A program made the translations under genes and the position numbers. Below the pieces are notes generated by a model that worked only from the letters and a program-made list of their open reading frames with translations, was not told the DNA's origin and ran no database searches. Positions 27,673 to 42,480 of a stretch of DNA of 64,000 bases are shown here, one piece after another (position 1 is the stretch's first letter; every line of letters begins with the position of its first letter). Origin of the DNA: Frankia sp. QA3 (lineage in GTDB: Bacteria; Actinomycetota; Actinomycetes; Frankiales; Frankiaceae); the NCBI RefSeq assembly GCF_000262465.1, contig NZ_CM001489.1, forward strand, positions 1,399,781 to 1,463,780, written 5' to 3'.

Positions 27673-28872
27673 ATGCCTGCTGACACGGATGACGCGCCCG
27701 CCGCCGCCTCGCCTGTCCCAGCCCCGAAAGCGCCGGCCCCGAAAGCGCCGGCTCCAAAAGCGCCGGCGTCGAAAGCGCCGGCGTCGACATCGGTGCCGGC
27801 GGCAGCCGAGGAGTGTGAACCGGCGGCCGAGAGCCTGTCGACGCCGCCCGCCCCGACGGAGCTGCCGCCGGAGGCGCAGGACGCGATCCCGCTGCAGCAG
27901 GACGGCGGTGCCGACAAGAGCGAAAGCGGCCTCACCGTCGCCATCGCCTTCGTGGCGAACCTGGTCATCGCGATCGCGAAGACGGGGGCGGCCCTGCTCA
28001 CCGGCTCCGCCTCGATGGTCGCCGAGGCCGCCCACTCCTGGGCTGACACCGGCAACGAGGTCTTCCTGGTGCTGGCGAACCGCCGCTCGCGCCGCCCGCC
28101 GGAGCCGGGCCATCCGCTCGGGTTCGGCCGCGAGGCCTACGTCTGGGCGCTGTTCGCGGCCATGGGGCTGTTCGTCGCCGGGGGCGCGGTCTCCATCACC
28201 CACGGGGTGCAGGAACTGTTCGCGGGCGACTCCGGCGGCGACTACCTGATCGGCTACATCGTGCTGGCGGTGTCGTTCCTGCTGGAGGGGACCTCGTTCC
28301 TGCAGTCGGTGCGCCAGGCCAGGCTCGAGGCCGAGTCGATGAACCGGGACGTCATCGAGCATGTGGTGGAGACGTCCGACCCGACGCTGCGCGCGGTCTT
28401 CGCCGAGGACTCGGCGGCGCTCGTCGGGGTGGTGATCGCGGCGCTCGGCCTGGCGCTGCACCAGATCACCGGCGTGGCGGCTTTCGACGCGCTCGGCTCG
28501 ATCCTGGTCGGGGTGCTGCTCGGTGTGGTCGCCATCGTGCTCATCAGCCGCAACCGCCGGTTCCTCATCGGGCAGGAGGCCGACCCGCAGGTGCGGGAGG
28601 CGACGCTGCGGGCCCTGCTGGCGCTGCCCGAGGTCGACCGGGTCACCCGGCTGCGCCTGGAGGTCGTCGGCCCGAGGATGATCACCGTGGTCGGCGACGT
28701 GGACCTGATCGGCGACGACATCGAGCCCAACGTCGCGATGCGCCTGCGCGGGGTGGAGGCCAAGCTGTCCGCCTCGCCCGCCGTCGTCGACGCCGTGCTC
28801 AGCCTCTCCGCCCCCGACGAGCCCTCCCTCACTCCCGACGACGCCCCCGACGACGGCCCCGCCACGTCCTGA
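27673..28872 (+). CDS. Cation diffusion facilitator (CDF) family transporter
   Basis: A 399-residue metal efflux protein. An N-terminal 80-residue tail is made of Ala-Pro-Lys repeats (PAPKAPAPKAP) and acidic stretches and looks disordered. The CDF domain then shows six hydrophobic helices starting at LTVAIAFVANLVIAIAK. The first metal-site region is in AEAAHSWADTGNEV (His/Asp in HSWAD) and the second in VFAEDSAALVG, with a zinc-binding-like C-terminal domain (VREATLRALLALPEVDRV). Family members export Zn2+, Fe2+, Mn2+ or Co2+ in exchange for protons; the ion is not certain. The ATG at 27673 follows AAGGACGAAGG. A second partial copy of the gene's 3' end lies at 36618-36681. Confidence 0.88.
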   Translation: MPADTDDAPAAASPVPAPKAPAPKAPAPKAPASKAPASTSVPAAAEECEPAAESLSTPPAPTELPPEAQDAIPLQQDGGADKSESGLTVAIAFVANLVIAIAKTGAALLTGSASMVAEAAHSWADTGNEVFLVLANRRSRRPPEPGHPLGFGREAYVWALFAAMGLFVAGGAVSITHGVQELFAGDSGGDYLIGYIVLAVSFLLEGTSFLQSVRQARLEAESMNRDVIEHVVETSDPTLRAVFAEDSAALVGVVIAALGLALHQITGVAAFDALGSILVGVLLGVVAIVLISRNRRFLIGQEADPQVREATLRALLALPEVDRVTRLRLEVVGPRMITVVGDVDLIGDDIEPNVAMRLRGVEAKLSASPAVVDAVLSLSAPDEPSLTPDDAPDDGPATS

Positions 28873-28885
28873 CGGATCCGCGCAG

Positions 28886-30442
28886 GTGCGGCTCGTGGTT
28901 CCTGTCCCGAAGGTGATGCCCGACAGCGGCCGGCTCATCACGGCCGCCCGCGACGGCATAGTCCGGGTCTGGGACCCGGACACCGACAGCGACCAGCCGG
29001 TGTCCGAGTTCGAGGCGTGGCCGCAGGGCGTCGTGGCCTGCGCGGTGTCGGCCGACGGCAGTCGACTGGCCGCGGTCGGGCCGGCCGAGACGGTCGTGTG
29101 GCGGGTGGACGACGGGAGTCGGCTCACCCAACTGGCGGCGAAGCGGGTGCACCACTGCGCGTTCTCGCCCGACGGCCGCCACCTGATGTTGGTCGGCGCG
29201 GACGGGTCGGTCCGCCGGTGGGATCTCGCGGCCGGCCCGGTGGACCCGGCTCGGCACACCAGGACGATCGCGAGCGGGACCGGGCCGGTGTATGCCTGCG
29301 CGTTCTCCCCGGAAGGTGCGATGTTCGTGACCGCGGGTCAGGACACGCTGGTCCGGCTGTGGAACCCCCACGCCGTACCGGGCCGGCCGGTCGTCCTGCA
29401 CGGGCACCGCGAGCCGGTCGCCGCGTGCGCGTTCGCGCCCACCGGTGAGTTGCTGACCGGTGGCAGCGACGGCGACGTGCGGGTCTGGGCGGTTCCGCGC
29501 GACGTGATGGCGCGTGCTTCGACGCGGTCGGCCCACATCGGCTGGGTGAACTGCTGCGCCTACGCCGCCGACGGTCGTGCGCTGGTGGTCGGCGCCGAGA
29601 ACGGCACGACCTTCGTCCGTTCCGCCCCCGCCGGCAGGGGAGGCGGCGCGGGCTGGGGTGGCGACGCCCGGCGGGAGTTCCCGGCGGAGCTGGCCGCCGG
29701 TGGGCCCGCCGCGGTGAGGGCGTGCGCGACGGGACCGGGGAGCCTGTTCGCCACGGCGGGCATGGGGCACGTGGTGCGGGTGTGGGACGCCGCGGCGGGT
29801 CCCCAGCCCGTGCACCGGCTCGAGGCGTCCGGGATCAGCGATCTGACCGGCTGCGCGATCTCGCCCGACGGGCGTCACGTCGCGGCGGTGGGCAACGACG
29901 TCGACGTCCGGCTGTGGGCGATCGGCGCGGGCCGCGACGACGGGCCGCAGCGGTTGCGCGGCCACACCGACGCGGTGCGTACCTGCGCGTTCGACGCACG
30001 CGGCACCCTGTTGGCCACCGGGGGCAACGATCACGTGGTCCGGCTGTGGAAGGTGCCGAGCGGACAGTCGCACATGATGTTGTCCGGGCATCGGGGAACC
30101 GTCTCGGCCTGCGCTTTCTCGCCCGACGGGGACGTACTGGTGACCGGGGGGTTCGATCATTCGATCATGGTGTGGGACCTGCTTCGGCAATCCTCTTACG
30201 AGCTTACGGACCACGACGACCTCGTCACCGGAGTCGCCTTCGCGCCCGACGGGCGCCGCTTCGCGAGCGTCGGGCGGGATCGGCGGATCATGGTCTGGCA
30301 GGCCGCCGACCCGGCGGCGCCGTACCGGATCTGCGATCTGCCGGTCGCGGAACCGCTGGCCGGCGTGGCGTGGGGCGCGGATAACCGGATAGCGGCCGTC
30401 GGTCATGGGGGTGTCTACGAGTTCGAGCTGGTCGAGAACTGA
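28886..30442 (+). CDS. WD40 repeat beta-propeller protein
   Basis: A 518-residue protein made almost entirely of WD40-type repeats, at least ten blades, with units such as CAFSPDGRHLMLVGADGSV, CAFSPEGAMFVTAGQDTLV and FATAGMGHVVRVWD. No enzyme domain or signal peptide is visible. It should act as a scaffold or ligand-recognition platform. It starts at GTG 28886, 13 bp after the CDF stop, and leads with a short gap into two GTPase genes. Together they look like one operon (WD40, GTPase, GTPase, unknown). A Gly-rich insert (AGRGGGAGWGGDARR) interrupts one blade near residue 250. The propeller is a plausible partner for the GTPases; this is inferred from context. Confidence 0.88.
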   Translation: MRLVVPVPKVMPDSGRLITAARDGIVRVWDPDTDSDQPVSEFEAWPQGVVACAVSADGSRLAAVGPAETVVWRVDDGSRLTQLAAKRVHHCAFSPDGRHLMLVGADGSVRRWDLAAGPVDPARHTRTIASGTGPVYACAFSPEGAMFVTAGQDTLVRLWNPHAVPGRPVVLHGHREPVAACAFAPTGELLTGGSDGDVRVWAVPRDVMARASTRSAHIGWVNCCAYAADGRALVVGAENGTTFVRSAPAGRGGGAGWGGDARREFPAELAAGGPAAVRACATGPGSLFATAGMGHVVRVWDAAAGPQPVHRLEASGISDLTGCAISPDGRHVAAVGNDVDVRLWAIGAGRDDGPQRLRGHTDAVRTCAFDARGTLLATGGNDHVVRLWKVPSGQSHMMLSGHRGTVSACAFSPDGDVLVTGGFDHSIMVWDLLRQSSYELTDHDDLVTGVAFAPDGRRFASVGRDRRIMVWQAADPAAPYRICDLPVAEPLAGVAWGADNRIAAVGHGGVYEFELVEN

Positions 30443-30497
30443 GCTATCGTGGATTCGCCGCCGTCGGCGGTCAGCATCGGGGGGCTGCGCAAGGCAC

Positions 30498-31442
30498 ATG
30501 AAGATAGTCATGCTGGGCCATTCCAATGCGGGGAAGACGACGTATCTCACCGCGGCCTACTATGCGATGCAGCACGACCCGAGAATCTTTCAGATCAGCG
30601 CGGGACGAAGAGACCACCGCCGATTGATGAGAAGCGGGCGCGTGCTGGCCGCCGGCCGCGGGTATCCGCCCCCCTCGGATGCCAGATCCGTCCACGAGTT
30701 CGTGGCCAGTCGCGACGGCATCGACCCGGTCGAGATCAGCTGGATCGACCATCGCGGCGGCGCGGCCGTGGCGAAGACGGCCGACGGCCAGGCCCGGCGG
30801 CTCCAGGAGGATCTGTCCGCCGCCGACGCGGTGCTCCTGTTCGGTGACGCGGAGCGGCTCGTCGGTCACACCCATTCCCAACGTGAGATCGACACCCTGG
30901 TCCCCATGCTGCTACGCGCCTTTGGGGATCGGGGCGGGAGCTCCACCATCCCGTTCGCGGTCCTGATCACGAAGGTGGACGCGCTCGGCGATGCGCTCGA
31001 CGAACTGCGGCCGGCGCTGCACCGTCCCTTCACGGCGCTGATGGACGGGGTGCGGCGGGCCGAGTGGGCCGTTGCCCGGTCGTTCGAGGTCGCCTGCGGT
31101 CCGTCCGCGCGGAATGTCGTCGAACCCCTGTTATGGATCATGCAGGCGGTGATCGACGACCGCATCGATACGCATTACACCGGCCTTGACGCCTCGCTTG
31201 CGACGATGCGTACGAAAGTGGCCGAGGACAAGGTGTCGGCCCGCTTCCGGGCTCATGTGAACGGGGTGCCGACGGGGCAGGCCATCGTTCGGGGCGAGTT
31301 GGAGAAGGCCATCGGCGCGCTGGCCGCGCTGCGACCGCTGCATACGGTCGCGCGCGAACTCGCGGCCGCCCTCGCGCATCTCGGGGCCGTGGAGCCCGAC
31401 GGCGCGCCGGAAGGCGGGCAGCACCAGGCAGTTCCTTCGTGA
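30498..31442 (+). CDS. Small P-loop GTPase-like protein A
   Basis: A 314-residue P-loop NTPase. It opens MKIVMLGHSNAGKTTYLTA with the Walker A/G1 motif GHSNAGKT at residues 7-14. The G3-like motif is WIDHRGGA, and the specificity motif ITKVDA matches TKxD of GTPases. Helices rich in Ala, Glu and Arg fill the C-terminus. No family name comes to mind beyond TRAFAC-type. It shares the unusual WxDxRGGA signature with the next gene, so the two are paralogues. Codon use near the 5' end is poorer in G/C than usual here (AAG ATA GTC ATG, AAT GCG, TAT). It lies 55 bp after the WD40 gene and 10 bp before its paralogue, so an operon is likely. Confidence 0.8.
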   Translation: MKIVMLGHSNAGKTTYLTAAYYAMQHDPRIFQISAGRRDHRRLMRSGRVLAAGRGYPPPSDARSVHEFVASRDGIDPVEISWIDHRGGAAVAKTADGQARRLQEDLSAADAVLLFGDAERLVGHTHSQREIDTLVPMLLRAFGDRGGSSTIPFAVLITKVDALGDALDELRPALHRPFTALMDGVRRAEWAVARSFEVACGPSARNVVEPLLWIMQAVIDDRIDTHYTGLDASLATMRTKVAEDKVSARFRAHVNGVPTGQAIVRGELEKAIGALAALRPLHTVARELAAALAHLGAVEPDGAPEGGQHQAVPS

Positions 31443-31452
31443 GGCGTCTCTT

Positions 31453-32553
31453 GTGGACGCCGTGGCGCGTGCGGGAAAGAACGGTGATGACGTGGAGATT
31501 CCGACGGTCAAGGTGACGATGCTCGGGACCACGGGCTCGGGCAAGTCGACGTTCATGCTCGGCATGTACGCGACCCTGTCCGCGGGCCTGCGGGGCTATT
31601 TCGTCTACGCCCAGGACCAGGACGACCACATCGATCTGACCGACGCGTGGGACCGGCTTCTCGACGACGGCCTGTTGCCGCCGCCCACGACGGAGGAGCG
31701 TTCCCGCCGCTACGAGTTCGTCTTCACCCAGGGTTTCGACACCCTGCTCAACATCGACTGGCTCGATTACCGCGGGGGTGCCCTGACGGACCGTAAGACC
31801 GCGCGGGACACCGCCGAACTACAGCAGCGGCTGGGGCAGTCCGACAGCGTCTATCTGGTGCTGGACGGCAATGCGGTCGGCCGGTGGGTGCGGTCCATCG
31901 TCGAGGGCGAGGGCGATAACCCGAGCCTGCGGCTGGAGCGGATCCAGCGCGAGCTCAAGGTCCAGGACATGACCGCGCAGCTCAACCGGTGCGTGGGCGA
32001 ACGCCGCAAAGCTGGGCTCCCGGCACCGTCGGTCGTCGCGCTGATCACCAAGATGGACACCCTGCCGGTGACCAGTGGGCTGGACCGGATCGATGCGATC
32101 AACCTCGCCGTGGAACACCTGCCCGAGCTGCTGCCGGTCGTGACCTCCGGCCTCACGACGCTGGTGAGCCCCGTCCAACTCGGGGAGTTCGGGACCGAAC
32201 ATCACGACACGGTCGACACCCAGCGCGTCAACCCGACGCATCTGCACAAACCTTTCGTGTTCACGCTGATGCAGTATCTGTGGTCGGGAATCGAGGACAA
32301 CGAGACCGAACTGGAGAATCTTGCCGCCGCCGACGTGGCCGCCGCCACCGAGCTGGAGCGGCTGCGTTCCGGAGTCGTCCGCAGCCTGCGTAACCGCGGC
32401 CGCATCAACAGCCTGCAGAGTGAGAAACAGCGGCGTCGGTCAGCGGCCGAGTCGCGGCGCTCGACGGTAAACTTGATGAACAGCCGGGTGCAGCAGCTTC
32501 GCGACGAGCTGATGAACCTTCCCATCTACCGGAACGGCAAGCTGGCGCCATGA
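31453..32553 (+). CDS. Small P-loop GTPase-like protein B (paralogue)
   Basis: A 366-residue P-loop protein with VKVTMLGTTGSGKSTFMLGM (G1 at residues 25-32), WLDYRGGA as the G3-like motif and ITKMD as the G4-like motif. An insertion after G3 contains DNAVGRWVRSIVEGEGDN-like sequence not seen in its paralogue. The C-terminal 90 residues are strongly charged and helical, with SLQSEKQRRRSAAESRRST, and probably form a coiled coil. It starts at GTG 31453 with GAGG upstream, 10 bp after its paralogue. The pair may work as a heterodimer of two GTPases, as in several prokaryotic GTPase pairs; this is inference. Confidence 0.82.
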   Translation: MDAVARAGKNGDDVEIPTVKVTMLGTTGSGKSTFMLGMYATLSAGLRGYFVYAQDQDDHIDLTDAWDRLLDDGLLPPPTTEERSRRYEFVFTQGFDTLLNIDWLDYRGGALTDRKTARDTAELQQRLGQSDSVYLVLDGNAVGRWVRSIVEGEGDNPSLRLERIQRELKVQDMTAQLNRCVGERRKAGLPAPSVVALITKMDTLPVTSGLDRIDAINLAVEHLPELLPVVTSGLTTLVSPVQLGEFGTEHHDTVDTQRVNPTHLHKPFVFTLMQYLWSGIEDNETELENLAAADVAAATELERLRSGVVRSLRNRGRINSLQSEKQRRRSAAESRRSTVNLMNSRVQQLRDELMNLPIYRNGKLAP

Positions 32554-32635
32554 CGTGCACCCCGGTGGGCCGCCGGCCGGCCGTGGCCGGCCATCTGCGC
32601 GGTGATGTGCCCCGCAGGACCGGGGGAGGTGGGGC

Positions 32636-33919
32636 GTGAGCGAGTTCGCGTTCGAGTGGTCCCCGGTCGTCTACGGGCGCACGGTCCGCGCCGACAACTG
32701 GTGGCGCGCGGTGCCGGTGGGCGCGGATCACCATGGCTGGCTGTCGGCCGTGGTCAGTTGCGCCGTCGCCGGCGGTGAGCATCTGCAGGACGGGCCGCGG
32801 TTTCTGCTGGCCCGCCTACGCGGCCGCTGGGTGGTGGGTCTCGCCTGCCGGGCGGCCGAGCTCAGCGAGTCGATGAACTCCGACGGGCAGCGGCCGTTGT
32901 TCTGCTTCGTCGGCTGGGCCGCGCCCGAGGACGCCGTCGTCGGGCCGCCGGGCCTGGCCGCGTTCGAGGAACACTGGCGGGTGTGGGCCGGCGAGATCTA
33001 CGAGCACTGGCTCGGCCGCGACTGGAACACCCATCCGAGCCTGGTCCGCGAGCCGCATGACAGCGAGCCGGTCGCCGCGCCGTGGGCACCCACCGTGGCC
33101 GTATCGGAGCCGGTCGCCGAGACGCCGGAGCGGAGCCCGTCGGCGCGCGGCGTCGAGGTGCCGGTGTCCGATGGGCCCGCCGTCGACGTGCCGGTGTCCG
33201 ACGGGCCGGCCGTCGACGTGCCGGCCGTCGAGGTGCCGGCCGTCGAGGTGCCGGCCGTCGAGGTGCCGGCCGCGGACGGGCCGGTGGCCGCTGTACCGCC
33301 GCGGGATTCGGCGGTGGTGCCCGAGCCCGTAGCGCGGGAGCCCGGCGAGAACGGTCGGCGGCGGGCGGAACCGGACTCGGCTGGCCCGCCGCGGCACGAG
33401 GAATTCCCGCCCGAACGCGCCCTCGGGCGGGCGGAGCCATCCCCGCGTGGTGGCGATCCCACGCGGGTGCACCCGATGATCGTGGTGTGCCCAACGGGCG
33501 AGCGGGCGGCGCTCTGGGAGGAGTTGCTCGCCGAGACAGAGCCGTTTGTCCTGGTGGTGGGATGGTCGCGGCTGCGCTCGGCGTACCTGCCCGGCGTGAC
33601 GCACGTGAGCGCCGACGACGTCGTGGGCCGTGGCGCCGTCGACGTCCCGAAGGACTGGTTCGGGCCGCCCGCGATGGCCCGGCCCGAGCCGCCGCCCGCC
33701 CGCCCCGACGATGCCTCGGACCCCGACGATGCCTCGGACCCCGACGAGGCGGTCACCGCCCGGCGCGGGCATACGTCCCGCGGCGTCCACTGGGACGAGG
33801 GCCGGGACGACGGCGGGGATGAGGGTGGGGATGAGGGCTGGGAGGCGCAGCCGCCGCACGCGGGGAGGCGTAAGCGCCTGAAGGGATGGGTCGGCAAACC
33901 CTTCCGCGGCATCCTCTGA
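32636..33919 (+). CDS. Unknown protein with conserved-looking N-terminus and disordered repeats
   Basis: A 427-residue protein I do not recognise. Residues 1-135 look like a compact globular domain (FAFEWSPVVYGRTVRADNWW, HGWLSAVVSCAVAGGEHL, EEHWRVWAGEIYEHWLGRDW). A low-complexity middle includes tandem EVPAVEVPAVEVPA (15-bp DNA repeats at about 33215-33270). A second small domain (PMIVVCPTGERAALWEELLAE, LVVGWSRLRSAYLPG) follows, then acidic DPDDASDPDD repeats. The C-terminal end is basic (RRKRLKGWVGKPFRGIL). It follows the GTPase pair after 82 bp on the same strand with a GGGGAGGTGGGG site, so it is likely the fourth gene of that operon and perhaps an adaptor or effector. Confidence 0.65.
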   Translation: MSEFAFEWSPVVYGRTVRADNWWRAVPVGADHHGWLSAVVSCAVAGGEHLQDGPRFLLARLRGRWVVGLACRAAELSESMNSDGQRPLFCFVGWAAPEDAVVGPPGLAAFEEHWRVWAGEIYEHWLGRDWNTHPSLVREPHDSEPVAAPWAPTVAVSEPVAETPERSPSARGVEVPVSDGPAVDVPVSDGPAVDVPAVEVPAVEVPAVEVPAADGPVAAVPPRDSAVVPEPVAREPGENGRRRAEPDSAGPPRHEEFPPERALGRAEPSPRGGDPTRVHPMIVVCPTGERAALWEELLAETEPFVLVVGWSRLRSAYLPGVTHVSADDVVGRGAVDVPKDWFGPPAMARPEPPPARPDDASDPDDASDPDEAVTARRGHTSRGVHWDEGRDDGGDEGGDEGWEAQPPHAGRRKRLKGWVGKPFRGIL

Positions 33920-33939
33920 CCGGTTCTCGGCGGCCGAGG

Positions 33940-36444
33940 TCAGGCGCCCGCGTCGGTGTGGAGACGACGGGCGCCGGCGAGGGCGACGATCCGGGCCGCC
34001 GCCGTGCCCGTGGTGAGGGCCTGTTCGTCGACCCGGGTGAGTTCCGCGATCAGGGCCGCACCGCCGCCGTCGAACATCGCCGGCCAGATCTGTCGCTGCA
34101 CCGGGCGGGTGAGCCGCTCGTAGTGCCACTCGACCTCGTTGGTCTGGGACACCTGGACGAAGAAGCGGTCGGCGGCGGCGGCGAGGATGCTGGCGGTGGT
34201 GCGTGCCTCGTGCAGCAGCGCCTGTTCCAGCTCGTCGATGCGGCGGTGCAGGATCGTGGTGAGCTCCTCGTAGAGCCGCCGGGTGCCCCGCTGGGCCTGT
34301 TGGCGTTCGGTACCGCCGAAGTCGAGGTCGCGATCGGAGGCGGGGCCCGTGGGACCGTCCGGTCCGTCGGAACGGCTCCGGCTGCGGCGCGGCGGGGCGG
34401 CGGCGGCACGCCGCGGCTGACGCCCGGTGACCGGCGGGTCGTCCTGGTAGCGACGCCCGGCCGCCGGGGGCGTCGGGGCGGTCGCGCTCGCGCTCTCTCC
34501 GACGTTGACCAACAGGATGTCGTCGGCGTCCCAGTGGATGCGGCGCACGATGGGCTGCGCGACCCGCAGGACGATACTGCCGAAGTTGATCCGCAGGTCG
34601 AGCAGTTCGGTCAGCGCGGCGGCGATGATCGGCGCGTCGTGGTCGGACGCCGTCCCGCGCAGGGCGCGCAGCGGTTCGTCGGCGGCGGTGCCCCCCGCCG
34701 ACGGCGGAACCAGTCCTTCGGTGAGCCGTTCCCGCAGCAGATCGGCGACCTCGACCCACAGGCGTTCGACGGACTGGCTGAGGGACAGGTCGATCCGGCC
34801 GAAGACCCGGCTGGCCTCCGAGCGCAGCCGGTAGTACTCGTCCTGCTTGGCGTCCAGGGCCCCGGCGGCGTAGGCGCGTTCCGTCGCCGTCGTCCACGCC
34901 TCCCGGCTGCCGCGGCCGAGGCCGGCGTCGACGTACGCGCGCATCGTCTGCGCCGCCTCGGTGATGCCGCGTTCGAGGTCCTCGATCGGCCGGTCGTCCT
35001 GGACGAGCTCGTCGTAGCGCGCGAGCAGCGCCGTCAGATCGAGCGCGATCGTGTTGCGCAGGTCGATGGCGAGCCGGCGGAAGGCGTCCTGCTCGTTCGG
35101 CAGCTGGCTGCGCCAGCCCCGCACCCGCTGCTGTACCTCCTGTGTGAGCGCCTGGACGTCGCGTCCGACCTGCTCGACGGTCTGCAGCACCCGGGTGACC
35201 GCGGCCCGGTCCATCTCGGCGAGCCGCGCCGCGAGATGGGCCAGGGCCGGCTCCATCAGCCCGGTGACGACCTGCCCGGGATCGGCGACGTCGGGCGCGA
35301 GCACCCTGATGCCACGCTTGGCGGTCTCCGTCGTGATCCGCTGTATCGCGTTGTCGAACAGGGCCTGCGGCAGGTGCGCGGAGTCGCGGTTGACGACGAC
35401 GAACACGAAGTCGTCCAGGCCGACCCCGCCCCGGGCGGCGTCGGCCAGCCGGATCGTCTGCCAGTCCTCCTCGGTGACGAACGCCGAGGCGACCGTGGGC
35501 CGCTTGACCATGAGCAGGAGGTCGACCTCGTTGCGGATCCCCTGCAGGAACTGGCGCTCGACGTCGAGCCCGGCCTCACCGCGGCCCGGCAGGTCCACCA
35601 GTCCGACGTCCGACACGTCGAGGTTGGGGAAGGCCTGCTCGATCCGGACCCCGCGTACCGCATGGTAGGGCCGGTAGTCGGGATCGTGCACCCCCTCGAC
35701 GGGGTAGGCCACGAAGGGCCGCAGCCGGCTGAGCGACACGTCCAGTTCACCGCCGCGCAGCAGCGGCTCGTAGCTGGCGAACGACGACCGGGCCGCGATC
35801 AGGCGGGTGAGGAACTTCTGCACGTCCGCCCGGGCGTCGGGATCCTCGGGGACGTGCGGATAGTGGGTCTGGGCGAACTGCCCGCGGGTCGAGGGAGCGG
35901 GTCCGAGGCCGGCGGCGGCGTGCAGCGGAGCCAGGTAGCCGTCGCGGAAGGACTCCCACGTGTGCAGGGACAGCGTCGCCGAGGACGGCCCGCTGCGATG
36001 GTAGATCCGGCTGGACGTGGCCGTTGTCGGATCGTTCTCGGTCGACGGGATGACGTCGTCCGGCAGACCCGTGATCGTCCGCAGCAGCGTGCTCTTGCCG
36101 GCCTTCGTCATGCCGACCACGCCGAGATTCACCGTGTCGCGATGGACCCGCTGGACCACCGCCTCGACATCGGCCTGCGCGTCGGCGGCCCGCCGGGCGA
36201 GCTCGGCGATCCGCCGCCTGCCCTCGGCGCTGCCGAACTCCGACAGCGCGTCGCTGACCCGTCGCTGCTCCTCGCTCGGCCGCTCGAGTGATCTGAGTGC
36301 CTGGCTGGCCGCGGCGATACCGCTGTCAAGATCTGCCAGGCCGCTGGAGAGCTGCGTCCACAGGTCCGCGAGCTCGGTCACGAAGGCCCGCTGACTGCGC
36401 CGGCCTTCGAGGGCCGCCGCGATCCGTCGCTGCACATCCGACAT
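33940..36444 (-). CDS. Dynamin-like GTPase
   Basis: An 834-residue large GTPase. Residues 1-105 are helical, then the G domain begins: G1 GMTKAGKS at 111-118, G2-like Thr in NDPTTATS, G3 DLPG at 284-287 and NRDS at 352-355 in the G4 position. Long amphipathic helices fill the middle. A disordered Pro/Arg/Ser-rich insert (residues about 655-720, PRRAAAAPPRRSRSRSDG) separates the last helical region (HRRIDELEQALLHEARTTAS). This is the plan of bacterial dynamin-like proteins, which remodel membranes and in some cases protect against phage; no membrane segment is obvious. It converges on the WD40-GTPase operon (20-bp gap) and may be a partner. Confidence 0.82.
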   Translation of the reverse strand: MSDVQRRIAAALEGRRSQRAFVTELADLWTQLSSGLADLDSGIAAASQALRSLERPSEEQRRVSDALSEFGSAEGRRRIAELARRAADAQADVEAVVQRVHRDTVNLGVVGMTKAGKSTLLRTITGLPDDVIPSTENDPTTATSSRIYHRSGPSSATLSLHTWESFRDGYLAPLHAAAGLGPAPSTRGQFAQTHYPHVPEDPDARADVQKFLTRLIAARSSFASYEPLLRGGELDVSLSRLRPFVAYPVEGVHDPDYRPYHAVRGVRIEQAFPNLDVSDVGLVDLPGRGEAGLDVERQFLQGIRNEVDLLLMVKRPTVASAFVTEEDWQTIRLADAARGGVGLDDFVFVVVNRDSAHLPQALFDNAIQRITTETAKRGIRVLAPDVADPGQVVTGLMEPALAHLAARLAEMDRAAVTRVLQTVEQVGRDVQALTQEVQQRVRGWRSQLPNEQDAFRRLAIDLRNTIALDLTALLARYDELVQDDRPIEDLERGITEAAQTMRAYVDAGLGRGSREAWTTATERAYAAGALDAKQDEYYRLRSEASRVFGRIDLSLSQSVERLWVEVADLLRERLTEGLVPPSAGGTAADEPLRALRGTASDHDAPIIAAALTELLDLRINFGSIVLRVAQPIVRRIHWDADDILLVNVGESASATAPTPPAAGRRYQDDPPVTGRQPRRAAAAPPRRSRSRSDGPDGPTGPASDRDLDFGGTERQQAQRGTRRLYEELTTILHRRIDELEQALLHEARTTASILAAAADRFFVQVSQTNEVEWHYERLTRPVQRQIWPAMFDGGGAALIAELTRVDEQALTTGTAAARIVALAGARRLHTDAGA

Positions 36445-36617
36445 GGCGGAGCCTCCCGATGTGTCCCCCGATGCGGCACATGCGGACCGGCCCCCGTACC
36501 GCCACTGTCACGATCATATCGCGCGCAGTGGGCAGGGCGGCACATCCCTCGCGCAGGCGCCGGTTCTGCGCGTCCCGCCCCCGCAGACCCGGCCATCCCG
36601 CCGGGACGCCGCGTTCA

Positions 36618-36681
36618 GCCGTGCTCGGCGCCCGACGAGCCCTCCCTCACCTCCGGCGGCGCCCCCGCCGCCTCCTGACGG
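36618..36681 (+). repeat. Partial copy of the CDF gene 3' end
   Basis: This stretch repeats the terminal part of the CDF transporter gene: GCCGTGCTC, then CCCGACGAGCCCTCCCTCAC (20 of 20, 36631-36650 versus 28813-28832), then TCCTGACGG including the stop codon (36673-36681 versus 28867-28875). In the matching frame it reads DEPSLTSGGAPAAS-stop against DEPSLTPDDAPDDGPATS-stop. It lies in the spacer between the dynamin and kinase genes, in the same orientation as the CDF gene. Confidence 0.55.
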
Positions 36682-36731
36682 CCAACCGCCCTCGGGACGT
36701 CAACGACGACCGACGACCATCGGGCTGACCG

Positions 36732-38468
36732 TCACCACCCGGGCCCGGGGCCTGCGGGCCCGGGGCGGCGAGGCTCCTGCCCGGAGGCGGCGCTGACCGC
36801 GGCGCTGACCGCGGCGAGCTCGGCGGAGACGCGCCCCGCGGGCCGGCCCCGCAGCAGTCCCATGTCCATCACGACCTCGCAGCCCAGCACCGGGTTGTAC
36901 CAGGCGAACCGGTAGCGCCCCTTCGGGTTCCTGCGGGCCGGCCGCGGCAGCCCGGCGGCCCATGGCGCGGTGGGCCGCGCCGGCCAGACCGCCAGCACCT
37001 CCCGGCGGCCCAGCCGGATGACGTCGGCGCGGGCGACCTCCGGCCAGGCGCGTTCGTACCGCTGCCCGCCGACCTCCGCGCGCAGCCCGTACCGGCCGAT
37101 CGTCAGCCTCGGGGGCCGTAGGCCGAAGCGGAGACGCCACCAGCCCGGGAACAGCGCGGCGACACCGACGACCGCGCCCACGCTCGCGCCCACGCTCTCG
37201 TCGGACAGATCGCTGAAGCTCATGGCCCGATAGGTGACCAGGATGTTGATGAAGACGATCATCGCCGCACCCACCAGGACGGCGCCGATGCCGACCAGCA
37301 GCAAGCCGGCCAGCAGGAATCTCCGCCGCTGACCCGGGAAGACGACGCTGTCGACCGCGGGGTGGCGGGGGGCGTGAACCGGCGCGCGGTCCACCGCCGC
37401 GGCCTCGGCGTCCCAGGCCCGCCTCGGCGGCGGGGGCGCGGGAGTAGGCGGCGGAGGTGTGGGAGTAGGTGTCGGCGGCGGCGGGGGTGTCGGCGGGGGC
37501 GGGACGTACGTGGCGGCCATGACCCGGGTCGGCGACCGGGGGGCGTCCGGGGTCGCCCACCGGGCGGGCGGGTCCGAACGCGTCGGCGGCAGGTGCTCGC
37601 CGATCTCGGCGGTGCGCTGCGCCACCAGCCTGGTGACCGCCGGCGGCCAGGTCTCGGTCGCGACCTCCACCCCGTCGGCGAACCAGCGCAGCAGCATGCC
37701 GGGGTCGGGCCGCTCGGCCGGGTCCTTCGCCAGGCAGGACCGCAGCGCGTCGCCCAGATCGGCCGGGACCCCGGTCAGGTCCGGGGAGCCGTGCACCACC
37801 CGGAACAGCATCGCGGCCGGGTTGCCCTGGCCGAACGGGCCGCGCCCGGTCGCGGCGAAGACGAGCACGGCGGCGGCGGAGAAGACGTCGGCTGCCGGCC
37901 CGGCGGCACCACCGGCGGCCTGCTCCGGCGACATGTACGCGGCGGTGCCGAGGACGTCGCCCGCCCGCGTCAGCTCCGTGTGGTCGACGGCCCGGGCGAT
38001 GCCGAAGTCGATCAGGCGCGGTCCGTCGGCGGCGAGCAGGACGTTGCTCGGCTTCACATCCCGGTGGACGACACCGGCCCGGTGCACGGCGACGATCGCC
38101 TCCAGCACGCCGGCCCCCAGCCGACGCAGCACGGCCGGCCCGAAGGGCCCGCAGCGCGTCACCGCCTCGTGCAGCGACGGGCCGGGCACGTACAGGGTGG
38201 CGAGCCACGGCGTCGCCGCGTCCGGGTCGGCGTCCACGACCGGGGCGGTGAACGCCCCGCTGACCAGCTTCGCCGCCGCGACCTCCCGCCGGAAACGGTC
38301 CCGGAACCCGCCGTCCCCGGCCAGCTCCGGCCGGACCACCTTGACGGCCATCAGTCGACCGGAGGGCGAATGGGCCAGGAACACCCGCCCCATGCCGCCC
38401 TCACCGATGCGGGCACGCAGGTTGTAGGGGCCGATCGTCGACGGATCCCCCGGTTCAAGATTCTGCAT
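36732..38468 (-). CDS. Membrane Ser/Thr protein kinase (Hanks type)
   Basis: A 578-residue kinase. The kinase core starts YNLRARIGEGGMGRVF (Gly loop 22-27), Lys43 in MAVKVV, catalytic HRDVKPSN (135-142), DFG at 154-156, and the activation segment GTAAYMSPEQA. All catalytic residues are present. A Pro/Thr tract (PPPPTPPPPPTPTPTP) forms a long linker, followed by two membrane helices (LLAGLLLVGIGAVLVGAAMI and VGASVGAVVGVAALF). The C-terminal domain is a PH-like beta region (RLTIGRYGLRAEVGGQRYER) on the cytoplasmic side. There are no PASTA repeats. It stands in the same direction as the dynamin-like gene, 287 bp downstream of the dynamin start, and might phosphorylate proteins of that cluster; this is inference. 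Confidence 0.92.
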   Translation of the reverse strand: MQNLEPGDPSTIGPYNLRARIGEGGMGRVFLAHSPSGRLMAVKVVRPELAGDGGFRDRFRREVAAAKLVSGAFTAPVVDADPDAATPWLATLYVPGPSLHEAVTRCGPFGPAVLRRLGAGVLEAIVAVHRAGVVHRDVKPSNVLLAADGPRLIDFGIARAVDHTELTRAGDVLGTAAYMSPEQAAGGAAGPAADVFSAAAVLVFAATGRGPFGQGNPAAMLFRVVHGSPDLTGVPADLGDALRSCLAKDPAERPDPGMLLRWFADGVEVATETWPPAVTRLVAQRTAEIGEHLPPTRSDPPARWATPDAPRSPTRVMAATYVPPPPTPPPPPTPTPTPPPPTPAPPPPRRAWDAEAAAVDRAPVHAPRHPAVDSVVFPGQRRRFLLAGLLLVGIGAVLVGAAMIVFINILVTYRAMSFSDLSDESVGASVGAVVGVAALFPGWWRLRFGLRPPRLTIGRYGLRAEVGGQRYERAWPEVARADVIRLGRREVLAVWPARPTAPWAAGLPRPARRNPKGRYRFAWYNPVLGCEVVMDMGLLRGRPAGRVSAELAAVSAAVSAASGQEPRRPGPAGPGPGW

Positions 38469-39527: not shown

Positions 39528-41081
39528 ATGTCCTCGTCGTCGCCGGAGAAGACCGCTGCCGAGCCGCCGCCCCAGGAGGCGAGGCGCGCCCGGATCGCGC
39601 TGGTCACGATCGTGACCTGCCAGCTGATGCTCGTTCTCGACATCACGATCGTGAACGTCGCCCTGCCGAGGATCCGGGAGACCCTCGGCTTCTCCGCCAC
39701 CGACCTCGCGTGGGTGATCAACGCGTACACGCTGGCCTACGGCGGCCTGCTCCTGCTCGGCGGGCGGGCCGGTGACCTGCTGGGACGCCGCGCGACGCTG
39801 CTCGGCGGGATCGCGGTGTTCACGATCGCCTCGCTGCTCGGCGGGCTGTCCACCGAGCCGTGGATGCTCATCGCCGCCCGCGTTGGGCAGGGTGTCGGGG
39901 CAGCGTGCGCGTCGCCGAACGCGTTGGCGCTCATCGCCGCCAACTTCCCGCCGGGCCCCGCGCGCACCCGGGCGATGGGCGCCTGGGCGGCGGTGGCCGG
40001 CGTCGGCGGCTCGATCGGGCTGATCGCCGGCGGCATGCTCACCACCTGGCTGTCCTGGCGGTGGGTCATGTTCATCAACGTGCCGTTCGGGCTCGTCATC
40101 CTGCTGCTCGCCCCGCGGTACCTGCGCACGCCGCCGCGTCGCGAGGGCCGCTTCGACGCGGCCGGGGCGCTGAGCTCCGTCGTCGGGCTCGCCTCCCTGG
40201 TTTACGGGTTCATCCGAGCCTCCTCGGACGGCTGGGGCGACGGACGGACCCTCGGCGCCTTCGTGCTCGCCGTCGTCGCGCTCGCGGTGTTCGCGGGCGT
40301 CGAGTCGCGGGCCGCGCAGCCGGTCGTCCCCCTGCGGCTGGTCGCCGAGGCCAGCCGCGCGCGGACCTACCTCCTCCTGCTGCTGCTGACCGGAAGCATG
40401 CTGAGCATGTTCTTCTTCGGCACGCAGGTCCTCCAGGAGGTCCTCGGCCTCAGCGCGCTGCGCGCGGGGCTTGCGTTCCTCCCGCTGTCCCTGGGGATCC
40501 TGGTGTCGGCCTCGCGGGCGTCGAAACTGCTGCCCAAGGTGGGTCCGAAGCCGCTCATGCTCGTCGGTGCCGCGCTGAGCACCGGGGCCATGCTGTGGCT
40601 GGCGCAAGTCTCGGTGACCAGCAGCTACACCTCGGTCGTACTCGGGCCGCTGCTCATGTTCGGCGCCGGTCTGGGCCTGCTGTTCGTGCCGCTGAGCGTG
40701 AGCCTCGTCGCGGGCGTTCCCGCCGAGCACTCCGGGGCCGCCGCAAGCATGATGGTCACGACCCAGCAGGTCGGCGGGTCGCTGGGACTGGCCGTCCTCG
40801 TCACCGTCTTCGGCAGCGCCGCCCGGCACGCGCGCGGCGACGCGCCGGCCGGTCTCGCCCCCGGCGAGCTGGCGAGGTACGCGCTGGCCCACGGGGTGGC
40901 CGAGGCGTTCACCGTCGGCGCGATCTTCGTCGCGGTCATCTTCCTCATCGTGCTGCTGACCCGTCCGATCCCGGTCGGGGACGCACCGCGGCCGCCCGGC
41001 CCCGACGCCGCCCCGGGGGCGGGTGCGGCGGCGTTCGACCGAGGCCGGCAGGACGACGCCGACGCCCCCCTGGGCACCTGA
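39528..41081 (+). CDS. MFS transporter, DHA2 (EmrB/QacA) family
   Basis: A 517-residue 14-helix drug:H+ antiporter. The first helix contains QLMLVLDITIVNVALPRIR, the signature D1 motif of the 14-TM DHA2 family. Motif A appears as GGRAGDLLGRRATLLGG, and motif C-like AGVGGSIGLIAGGMLT follows. A C-terminal Pro/Gly/Ala tail (about 40 residues) is cytoplasmic. The ATG at 39528 has GGGAGG upstream. It is probably repressed by the divergent TetR protein and exports a toxic compound such as an antibiotic or dye; the substrate is unknown. Confidence 0.93.
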   Translation: MSSSSPEKTAAEPPPQEARRARIALVTIVTCQLMLVLDITIVNVALPRIRETLGFSATDLAWVINAYTLAYGGLLLLGGRAGDLLGRRATLLGGIAVFTIASLLGGLSTEPWMLIAARVGQGVGAACASPNALALIAANFPPGPARTRAMGAWAAVAGVGGSIGLIAGGMLTTWLSWRWVMFINVPFGLVILLLAPRYLRTPPRREGRFDAAGALSSVVGLASLVYGFIRASSDGWGDGRTLGAFVLAVVALAVFAGVESRAAQPVVPLRLVAEASRARTYLLLLLLTGSMLSMFFFGTQVLQEVLGLSALRAGLAFLPLSLGILVSASRASKLLPKVGPKPLMLVGAALSTGAMLWLAQVSVTSSYTSVVLGPLLMFGAGLGLLFVPLSVSLVAGVPAEHSGAAASMMVTTQQVGGSLGLAVLVTVFGSAARHARGDAPAGLAPGELARYALAHGVAEAFTVGAIFVAVIFLIVLLTRPIPVGDAPRPPGPDAAPGAGAAAFDRGRQDDADAPLGT

Positions 41082-41247
41082 CGGTCCGCAAGTCGGTCGG
41101 CGGGGTCGTTGGCGGGGTCCCGAGACACCTGACGGTCCGGCGGCGTCGCGCGCCGACCACCGGCACGGGCCCCCGCCGGACCGGTGGTCGCACCGCTGGC
41201 CGGATCTGACAGAGACGTGTCATTGCGGCCATGGTCTACCCGCGGCG

Positions 41248-42480
41248 ATGCTGCGCTGTATGGCTCCCCGGCGTGTCGTGATCGTGGCCTTCGACGGCGT
41301 CCAGCTCCTGGACGTCACCGGCCCGGCGGACGTGTTCGCGACGGCGTCGCGCGTGCTGCAGGCGCGTGCGGTCGAGGGCGGCGGCACGGGACCGGACAGC
41401 ACGGCTCCGAAGCACGGCGTGGATCCGAAGCACGGCGTGGATCCGAAGCACGGCGCGGATCCGAAGCACGGCGCGGATTTGGTACGCGGCGTGGATCCGG
41501 TGTGCGGCGTGGATCCGGCGTACGTCGTCGAGATCGCCGCGCCGCGGCCGGGGGAGATCCGCACGGCGAGCGGGGTGCGCCTGGTGGCGGACGTGGCGCT
41601 CGCCGACGTGGCGGGCACCGCCGACACGGTGCTCGTGCCGGGGGCGCTGGGAGCGCGCCCGGATGCGGGCCCCGTCGTCGTGCCGGAGATCGTCGACTGG
41701 CTGCGCGCGGTCGGCGGGCGCCCACACCGGATCGCCTCGGTCTGCGCGGGCGCCCACATGCTCGCCGCGGCCGGCCTTCTCGACGGCCGGCCCGCCACCA
41801 CGCACTGGTTCACCGCGGGCCGGCTGGCGGCCGAGTTCCCCGCGGTCGCCGTCGACCCGGATCCGATCTTCATCCGCTCCGGGCGCGTCTGGACCTGCGC
41901 GGGGGTCAGCTCCGGGATGGACCTCGCGCTGGCGATGGTCGCCGACGACTGCGGGGATGACCTCGCGCTCGCCACGGCGCGCTGGCTGGTCATGTACCTG
42001 CGGCGCCCGGGCGGCCAGAGCCAGTTCAGCGTGCCGCTCGCCCACCCGGCGCCGACCCGCGACGACATCGGGGAGCTGCATCGCTGGATCGCCGACCATC
42101 TGGCCGCCGACCTCTCCGTCGCCGCCCTCGCCCGGCGCGTCGGCATGAGTGAACGGCACTTCTCCCGGGTGTTCACCGCGCAGGCCGGCGTCACGCCCGC
42201 CGCCTACGTCGAGTCCGTCCGCATCGAGGCGGCCCGCCGCATGCTCGAACAGACCGGACACACCGTGGAGGCCGTCGCGCAGCGCTGCGGTTTCGGCTCC
42301 CCGGAGACCTTCTACCGCGTCTTCCGACGCGACCTCGCCCTGACCCCGACCGACTACCGGCGGCGGTTCCGCCTGCCCGCCGACGCGGGAACCGGGGCCG
42401 GGGCCAATGCCGATCAGCCTCCTCCGGAAAGGGGAAACCCATGGGCACCGCCGCCCTCACCCGTCCCGACACCGCGCTGA
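41248..42480 (+). CDS. GlxA-type AraC family regulator with DJ-1/PfpI domain
   Basis: A 410-residue transcription regulator. The N-terminal DJ-1/PfpI amidase-like domain has VVIVAFDGVQLLDVTGPADV and the nucleophile-elbow region IASVCAGAHMLAAAGLLDGR, followed by ATTHW. The C-terminal AraC domain has two HTH motifs (DLSVAALARRVGMSERHFSR and TVEAVAQRCGFGSPETFYRV) and ends DYRRRF. Between the first strand and the rest of the DJ-1 fold there is a run of six 18-bp repeats encoding PKHGVD-type hexapeptides, which is not typical of the family. The start is taken at ATG 41248; ATG 41260 would also fit. It overlaps the HD-domain gene by 40 bp, so the two are coupled. Confidence 0.9.
   Translation: MLRCMAPRRVVIVAFDGVQLLDVTGPADVFATASRVLQARAVEGGGTGPDSTAPKHGVDPKHGVDPKHGADPKHGADLVRGVDPVCGVDPAYVVEIAAPRPGEIRTASGVRLVADVALADVAGTADTVLVPGALGARPDAGPVVVPEIVDWLRAVGGRPHRIASVCAGAHMLAAAGLLDGRPATTHWFTAGRLAAEFPAVAVDPDPIFIRSGRVWTCAGVSSGMDLALAMVADDCGDDLALATARWLVMYLRRPGGQSQFSVPLAHPAPTRDDIGELHRWIADHLAADLSVAALARRVGMSERHFSRVFTAQAGVTPAAYVESVRIEAARRMLEQTGHTVEAVAQRCGFGSPETFYRVFRRDLALTPTDYRRRFRLPADAGTGAGANADQPPPERGNPWAPPPSPVPTPR
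41407..41514 (+). repeat. In-frame 18-bp minisatellite inside the GlxA-like gene
   Basis: Six consecutive 18-bp units, the first four nearly identical (CCGAAGCACGGCGTGGAT with one T/C change), the last two diverged. They encode PKHG[VA]D hexapeptides and, being multiples of three, keep the reading frame. Confidence 0.95.

Follow-up and report, generated by a model that had tools for sequence, protein, structure and literature searches.

What kind of system, if any, do the six adjacent genes at positions 28,886 to 38,468 of the Frankia sp. QA3 stretch analyzed here ("the window": all 64,000 nucleotides, positions 1,399,781 to 1,463,780 of contig NZ_CM001489.1) encode? An earlier reading made from the letters alone (the "sequence-only reading") had described, in order, a WD40 protein, two small paralogous P-loop GTPases, an unrecognized 427-residue protein, a convergent dynamin-like GTPase, and a membrane Ser/Thr kinase, and had proposed that they form a single signalling or defence module. 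All six open reading frames lie where that reading placed them, and Pfam agrees on the WD40 protein, the GTPases (GT1 and GT2), the orphan (ORPH), the dynamin-like protein, and the kinase (Table 1). As a co-occurring set the module did not hold, as neither six nor five of the genes were found together in any other genome examined; the GT1-GT2-ORPH core, however, recurs across phyla. The locus is not a conserved six-gene system—it holds a conserved three-gene switch and a plausible dynamin output.

A three-gene core common to Frankia sp. QA3 and cyanobacteria

Sequence comparison shows that GT1, GT2, and ORPH are a unit common to Frankia sp. QA3 and cyanobacteria. A profile of both GTPases recovered 14 loci, nearly all cyanobacterial and one from a Defluviitaleaceae metagenome-assembled genome (L025), and tblastn found three cyanobacterial plasmids with GTPase relatives, including a Calothrix plasmid where ORPH was matched too, directly 3′ of GT2. 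Because the contig scan for GTPases ran on two peptide patterns, the cyanobacterial bias of these relatives may be partly an artefact. Among 386 genomes of the Scytonematopsis phylum, an ORPH profile (at most nine candidates scored per genome) matched five, two of them (G548 and G757) new. In gene maps, the kind of neighbourhood check that the sequence-only reading had suggested for the proteins starting at 30498 and 31453, ORPH lies directly 3′ of the GT2-type gene in 15/16 loci, window included, the exception (L053) having ORPH ahead of the GTPase. This count excludes a locus at a contig end (L016), a fragment (L026), and the unproven L025, and independent cases number fewer than 16 because several loci are near-duplicates or pieces of the same genome (L013/L029, L020/L021, L013/L024, L023/L026). 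We consider it likely that the three core genes are a unit with a shared function.

The order GT1-GT2-ORPH is retained in cyanobacteria, with further copies in several of these loci: GTa-ORPHa-GT1-GT2-ORPHb in Calothrix 6303, Geminocystis, and G548, and ORPHa-GT1-GT2-ORPHb in Scytonematopsis and Anabaena 90. Nine Pleurocapsales-type loci (L014, L015, L016, L018–L022, and L026) carry a Ser/Thr kinase directly 5′ of the GT2-type gene, akin to the window kinase in its catalytic core only. With Hsp70, large AAA+, coiled-coil, and radical-SAM-type genes adjoining it in Calothrix 6303, G548, and G757, the core may act as the switching part of larger machineries. A larger cyanobacterial cluster (L027, L052, L053) comprises an 848–849-aa AAA+ protein, a 465–495-aa protein without a Pfam match, a coiled-coil protein, Hsp70, and a radical-SAM/Fer4_12-type protein; the convergent 848-aa ATPase in Calothrix (L027), considered as a counterpart of the dynamin-like protein, was rejected as an AAA+ protein. 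Elsewhere, a Pleurocapsa genome encodes a 1615-aa caspase-nSTAND1-WD40 protein convergent with GT2-ORPH (L020:2805–7652, minus strand), and a Geminocystis plasmid has genes annotated as "anti-phage dCTP deaminase" and dGTPase (L029:1–1961) a few kb 5′ of its GT-ORPH cluster.

Nearer to Frankia sp. QA3, relatives are scarce. The ORPH profile at E 1e-4 matched the window genome alone among 396 genomes of its phylum (at most nine candidates scored per genome), and no GT2 relative reached E 1e-8 in the 395 others (at most five scored). In 34 other genomes of the family, GT2 had no full-length relative and one partial match (E 4.5e-6), and whole ORPH drew two weak matches, both in its low-complexity part. 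Viral contigs gave no confirmed relative of ORPH (searched with two peptide patterns) or of the dynamin-like protein (one pattern), and phage records gave no ORPH N-domain.

The two GTPases are true paralogues by sequence (27% identity; BLAST E about 5e-12), as the sequence-only reading had it. They are not small GTPases of the classical Ras type: sequence models place them as relatives of the DO-GTPases (Pfam PF19993/PF19975), DO-GTPase2 matching 23/23 aligned GTPases (best E 2.9e-15) and DO-GTPase1 matching 13, both at E up to 0.1. A GTPase profile built without the window and L025 recovered GT2 at E 7.7e-54 and GT1 at E 5.3e-31, and against solved structures the GTPase profile gave weak matches only (best E 0.059). 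In a maximum-likelihood tree of 31 rows, window GT2 falls inside a cyanobacterial GT2 clade (support 96/86) and GT1 outside it, in a tree whose bootstrap had not settled and in which both window rows are long branches of unusual composition. With that same reservation about the bootstrap, the tree gives GT1 and GT2 separate cyanobacterial counterparts. From these placements the duplication appears to predate the split, and joint transmission of the pair is probable.

The G3 motif common to the clade is D-Y/H-R-G, with R107 and G108 invariant in 23/23. The position after DxxG, which is that of Gln61 in Ras, is G, L, S, or R in 22/23; the remaining GTPase, that of L025, has E. Kaur et al. (2020; PMC7159879) describe a conserved glutamate in Walker B as a hallmark of the DO-GTPase family, and we read it as the E of DxxGE. 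That residue is missing from 22/23 of the GT1/GT2 clade and present in L025, and two DO-GTPases elsewhere in the window genome carry DSSGE and DNAGE. Because no acidic or amide residue follows DxxG and an invariant arginine sits inside the motif, GT1 and GT2 probably need help to hydrolyze GTP.

The ORPH family and its relation to known GTPase systems

Could ORPH provide that help? The sequence-only reading had left the protein unrecognized, with a disordered middle, and this is borne out: the middle is of low complexity (with 15-bp DNA repeats at about 33151–33328), and scanning 20 ORPH members singly against Pfam gave scattered chance-level matches (best E 0.0012 among the 25 of 29 families listed), with none to the Robl_LC7 or longin models among those families. 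A profile search against the PDB, of the general kind that it had recommended, came back empty. By sequence ORPH is a family of its own without a Pfam family match, and a cyanobacterial profile built without the window and L025 recovers window ORPH at E 5.5e-12. An N-domain of about residues 1–145 is followed by the low-complexity region, and six residues (R15, D20, R55, D83, R86, and G93) are invariant in 20/20 aligned rows, a figure that counts the unproven L025 row, retained in alignments A2, A4, and A6. The gene after the L025 GTPase was not accepted as a proven ORPH member, its E of 2.7e-21 being circular (it was in the profile) and its E without itself being 0.18–0.4. At the other end of the protein, 12/18 cyanobacterial rows terminate in Trp-Phe and four have a membrane-type stretch; window ORPH has an internal KDWF at residues 339–342 (window 33650–33661), and the Trp-Phe end or internal KDWF is possibly a docking motif.

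A model of the Myxosarcina ORPH N-domain (12 relatives in the alignment; pLDDT 79, pTM 0.80) has the element order b-b-a-b-b-b-a, which is that expected of a longin/roadblock fold. When it was compared with the PDB by Foldseek, 32 of the top 50 entries were longin/roadblock GTPase regulators or dynein-roadblock entries, classes being assigned by entry title and the matching chain of each complex likewise judged from titles; many of the 50 are redundant and two are axonemal dynein entries. The list, from E 0.027 on, includes SEA/GATOR1, Lst4, Ragulator/LAMTOR, p14/MP1, Ykt6, BLOC-3, FLCN-FNIP2, and MglB. Several observations weigh against a longin-like assignment. The best E was that 0.027, with none at E 0.001 and TM-scores of 0.2–0.5, and the top ten holds two PAS-domain chains of one entry. 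The model of window ORPH itself is poor (pLDDT 44), and its best matches, PF0695 and a PAS domain, come ahead of longin-type entries (GATOR1, FLCN-FNIP2, and DENND10 later; MglB and a Roadblock-Longin protein lower still). Against viral structures the fold search gave nothing consistent for ORPH. We regard the longin-like fold of the N-domain as a good lead, not proof, and hold with moderate confidence, on the strength of these models, that ORPH would be a longin-like GTPase regulator.

The closest published comparison is with the DO-GTPase/GAP1 conflict systems, and here the link that the sequence-only reading drew between such GTPases and NTP-dependent conflict systems stands, since the DO-GTPase family belongs there (PMC7159879)—the conflict role being a prediction in that paper too. 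The window block is like those systems in its GTPase family, its paralogous pair (two paralogous GTPases occur in 38% of the published systems, and GT1 and GT2 are such a pair), its partner gene directly 3′ and, in relatives of the block, links to a kinase and Hsp70 (PMC7159879). It differs in that the six window proteins have no Pfam match to GAP1 (N, M, or C), FNIII, or GASH, no Glu follows DxxG, the partner has a longin-like predicted fold, and a dynamin is its neighbour; the words dynamin, longin, and roadblock are absent from the main text of PMC7159879. As the block shares the GTPase family and lacks GAP1, FNIII/GASH, and the glutamate, we do not file it as a member. ORPH might nevertheless be a very divergent GAP1-N domain, and the block a derived member of these systems: it too lies directly 3′ of a DO-GTPase, and its motif order resembles by eye that of the GAP1-N2 protein encoded elsewhere in the window genome (L033). 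Yet the 25 Pfam families listed (out of 29) for the 20 ORPH members, with E values as high as 1 admitted, include no GAP1 family, GAP1-M, FNIII, and GASH are missing from the block, and hhalign of the ORPH profile with the genome's GAP1 gave a probability of 0.2%, rank 170 of 352 proteins (a weak test, with a single GAP1 sequence). We judge this derivation unlikely. The L033 locus (5085000–5102000 of the window genome), a separate DO-GTPase locus, is by its sequence a good case of a DO-GTPase/GAP1 system close to the published GAP1-N2/Hsp70 theme: it has GAP1-N2 (80 bits), GAP1-M (39 bits), a weak FNIII match, two Hsp70-like genes, and a protein resembling the DO-GTPases whose N-terminus is zinc-ribbon-like. 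Its GAP1 had no match among plasmids.

MglA/MglB and the actinobacterial conservons (PMC4316618) likewise encode a GTPase with a small roadblock-type regulator, a likeness that for ORPH is predicted only, and theirs are a Mgl-type Ras-like GTPase and Robl_LC7 where the window has DO-GTPases and a family without a Pfam match. MglB, a roadblock protein, is an activator of MglA and acts by moving into place the catalytic glutamine and the arginine finger that MglA itself carries (PMC4316618). GT1 reaches 11.6 bits with the Arf model, under its cut-off of 22.3, the window kinase is of the Ser/Thr type where conservons have a histidine kinase, and ORPH shows no Robl_LC7 among the families listed; we do not place the block in this class. 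The eukaryotic Rag-Ragulator/GATOR layout combines two paralogous GTPases, longin/roadblock domains, and beta-propellers in the wider machinery. The window block is like it in that layout, the longin-like domain being predicted for ORPH, and in the fold matches; no sequence homology was found and membership is not claimed.

The dynamin-like neighbour and the limits of the block

Does the core act with the genes around it? The convergent dynamin-like gene ends exactly 20 bp from ORPH, as the sequence-only reading had stated. Its product does not reach the Dynamin_N cut-off, and the two best Dynamin_N matches of the window genome lie outside the block. A profile of nine relatives matched, in the PDB, immunity-related GTPases (IRG; 7e-6), mitofusin (1.6e-4), dynamin-related protein 1A (0.0017), and BDLP (0.024), in partial alignments whose top matches span about 50–75 positions around the P-loop, with other P-loop proteins coming next. 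The large-GTPase domain is related to IRG, mitofusin, and dynamin proteins over these partial alignments, and "dynamin-like" is a fair label on sequence grounds. With the bacterial dynamins DynA (PMC8844932), BDLP, and LeoA/LeoBC it has in common that it is a large, putatively membrane-acting GTPase; it matches LeoBC and LeoA weakly and represents a separate subfamily.

This subfamily, too, is rare. The first 400 residues have one relative in 33 other family genomes (G012), and the profile found none at E 1e-15 in 395 other phylum genomes (at most four candidates scored per genome). tblastn with the protein found ten plasmid-collection records, G012 making an eleventh other locus; one of the ten, L055 (NZ_LT559118.1; only 10 features listed), is 11.85 Mb long and surely a chromosome. 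A DO-type GTPase lies within 5 kb of the dynamin relative in 7/11 of these loci: four by the GTPase profile built without the window and L025 (L055, L057, L103, and L058, of which L057 and L103 are near-duplicates), two (L032 of G012, and L054) through a GTPase that BLAST connects with the one in L055 (E 8e-11 and 7e-11), and one (L059) at 24.8 bits with DO-GTPase1, below the cut-off of 27. As background, the same profile had no match in 800 kb of the relative G001. In Anabaena sp. 90, moreover, a further two dynamins, with Dynamin_N scores of 102 bits (in the one that matches LeoA as well) and 58.6 bits, begin 1.7 kb 3′ of the GT-ORPH cluster. Following dynamin and DO-type GTPase there are third genes in Stanieria (L059:10148–13126, 992 aa) and Streptomyces aurantiacus (L054:10445–11317, 290 aa), whose starts resemble GAP1-N or ORPH by eye, with no backing from Pfam or hhalign.

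A dynamin–DO-GTPase link thus recurs, separately from GT1-GT2-ORPH, and we lean slightly toward the dynamin being the output of the GT1/GT2 switch. Against this stand the four of 11 loci with no DO-type GTPase by these tests (L056, L060, L061, and L104, the last a fragment), the subgroups of the dynamin-adjacent GTPases elsewhere, which are DO subgroups other than those of GT1 and GT2, and the finding that the window's dynamin subfamily and GT1-GT2-ORPH stand together in no other locus examined. DxxGE is present in the dynamin-adjacent GTPases of Aulosira, Stanieria, and 2/3 of those of Nostoc; the third Nostoc GTPase has DYPGQ, Nonomuraea DYPGK, Streptomyces DYPGG, and G012 DFPGR.

A degenerate direct repeat encloses the genes from WD40 to dynamin (Table 1). 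Its left copy is the 3′ end of the upstream cation-efflux gene, including the stop codon, and the copies are identical at 73 of 101 aligned columns and at 85% of an ungapped run of 47 bp. Their alignment scores 78; nothing scored above 43 on either strand of G001, of which 80 stretches of 20 kb were compared, or above 33 in the rest of the window. Because of this repeat, the WD40-to-dynamin block looks inserted as a unit; it contains no integrase gene. Two results tell against insertion. The empty site was not found, the 80 G001 stretches giving scattered matches and no collinear run, so that the repeat is what the island reading rests on. In addition, G+C is atypical only in GT1 (68.5%) and GT2 (65.9%), the other measured genes, WD40, ORPH, and dynamin included, lying at 72.5–77.1% in a single-contig genome of 7.59 Mb with mostly 70–78%.

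Table 1. Genes and repeat copies at the locus, with window coordinates and the model matches of each.
Feature	Position	Strand	Evidence
Upstream cation-efflux gene	3′ end and stop codon at 28777–28875		Pfam Cation_efflux 120.6 bits
Direct repeat, left copy	28777–28875	+	3′ end of cation-efflux gene, stop codon included
WD40 beta-propeller protein, 518 aa	28886–30442	+	Pfam WD40 230 bits, nine stretches
GTPase1 (GT1), 314 aa	30498–31442	+	DO-GTPase2 33.9 bits (cut-off 27); G3 motif WIDHRGG
GTPase2 (GT2), 366 aa	31453–32553	+	DO-GTPase2 20.3 bits (below cut-off); G3 motif WLDYRGG
ORPH, partner of the GTPase pair, 427 aa	32636–33919	+	Sole Pfam match at chance level, E 0.25
Dynamin-like large GTPase, 834 aa	33940–36444	−	MMR_HSR1 25.0 bits (above cut-off); Dynamin_N 22.5 bits (below cut-off 27)
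Direct repeat, right copy	36597–36681	+	Between dynamin-like gene and kinase
AfsK/PknB-like Ser/Thr kinase	36732–38468	−	Pkinase 119.6 bits; AfsK model 292.8 bits (below its cut-off 1300)

The single module of the sequence-only reading survives in part, as the repeat joins WD40 to dynamin, leaves the kinase outside, and encloses a WD40 adjacency that is not replicated. The WD40 gene lies 55 bp from GT1 on the same strand, and its product is a possible sensor or scaffold; in no related locus, however, does a WD40 gene stand beside the GTPases, which counts against its inclusion. The kinase has the membrane character attributed to it (a hydrophobic stretch starting at residues 383–397), and its membership in the block is doubtful. 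GT1-GT2-ORPH alone might be the functional unit, with WD40, dynamin, and kinase its chance neighbours in a variable region. No other locus examined has the full set, the core has different neighbours in cyanobacteria (kinase, Hsp70, AAA+, radical SAM), and the dynamin gene is on the opposite strand, with 287 bp between it and the kinase. We nevertheless think this reading rather unlikely, as ORPH and this dynamin are two rare families, neither found in the 395 other phylum genomes (with at most nine and four candidates scored per genome, respectively, and at E 1e-15 for the dynamin), that lie 20 bp apart inside one direct repeat, and each has been found with DO-type GTPases elsewhere.

A possible switch at the membrane

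We propose that WD40, GT1, GT2, ORPH, and dynamin make up a signalling module that was acquired by transfer and has a divergent DO-GTPase pair at its centre, in which a longin-like regulator sets the pair and the dynamin acts at the membrane; on the evidence above, this combined reading is evenly balanced between right and wrong. In it, GT1 and GT2 would form a heterodimeric switch, and the ORPH N-domain would bind the pair and set its state as a GTPase-activating protein (GAP), exchange factor, or scaffold, with the invariant ORPH arginines as candidates for doing so. As the usual type of residue is missing from the GTPases, ORPH may supply a catalytic one, or the invariant G3 arginine may serve. 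The WD40 propeller would take the signal or scaffold the complex. A flip of the pair would release the dynamin-like GTPase or recruit it to the membrane, which this GTPase might then either stabilize, as may be compared with B. subtilis DynA in phage infection, or break, as in abortive infection.

What such a switch would serve bears on whether it is a defence system, as the sequence-only reading had suggested. There is no direct evidence for that role, and we put defence, rather than other stress or cell biology, a little short of an even prospect. In B. subtilis, DynA postpones the lysis that follows phage infection (PMC8844932) and is the model here for a dynamin as output; dynamins serve membrane upkeep as well (PMC8844932). 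The module could instead serve envelope stress, polarity, or differentiation: a GTPase with a roadblock-type regulator is the layout of MglA/MglB and the conservons (PMC4316618), and membrane stress is the predicted field of action of a DO-GTPase encoded in psp operons (PMC11237479). Its spread is, however, patchy (ORPH in 1/396 genomes of the window's phylum and 5/386 of the Scytonematopsis phylum), it is carried on plasmids and, in the window, inside a repeat, and some of its neighbours elsewhere are defence genes (those by L029 and L020). Such a non-defence role is possible, with a likelihood somewhat below that of defence.

More broadly, the layout may be a bacterial counterpart of Rag-Ragulator—an obligate DO-GTPase heterodimer set by a longin-fold ORPH, with WD40 input and dynamin membrane output—that acts as a transferable immune or stress switch of actinobacteria and cyanobacteria, ORPH being a third class of DO-GTPase partner beside GAP1-N1 and GAP1-N2; this extension is speculative, and we think it unlikely as a whole. 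If ORPH is longin-type, bacteria combine paired GTPases with a longin/roadblock regulator beyond the Mgl/Ras family too, a point relevant to how Rag/Ragulator-type signalling arose. DO-GTPases, treated by prediction only in PMC7159879, gain a compact core and a partner family that matches no Pfam model; the likely fold of that partner suggests how they are regulated, and a DO-GTPase–dynamin link would place the target of such switches at the membrane. In the openly licensed literature, no paper brings together three or more of the topics longin, bacterial GTPase, conflict system, and dynamin, a result that does not show absence from print.

PADLOC recognized no known system among the window proteins and had no match of any kind for GT1 and ORPH. 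Its individual matches were of the dynamin-like protein to LeoBC (E 9.8e-6) and LeoA (E 6.7e-4), both weak, of the kinase to many kinase models, PD-T4-6 first, of GT2 to mad8 (E 0.0029), and of the WD40 protein to one model through its repeats. Two further stretches of the window are repetitive: 15-bp, Ala-Pro-Lys-rich repeats (27718–27792) lie in the N-terminal region of the cation-efflux gene, the one with the duplicated 3′ end, and an AraC/DJ-1 type regulator gene (41023–42480) encodes a run of PKHGVD/PKHGAD hexapeptides in its N-terminal part, from about 41407.

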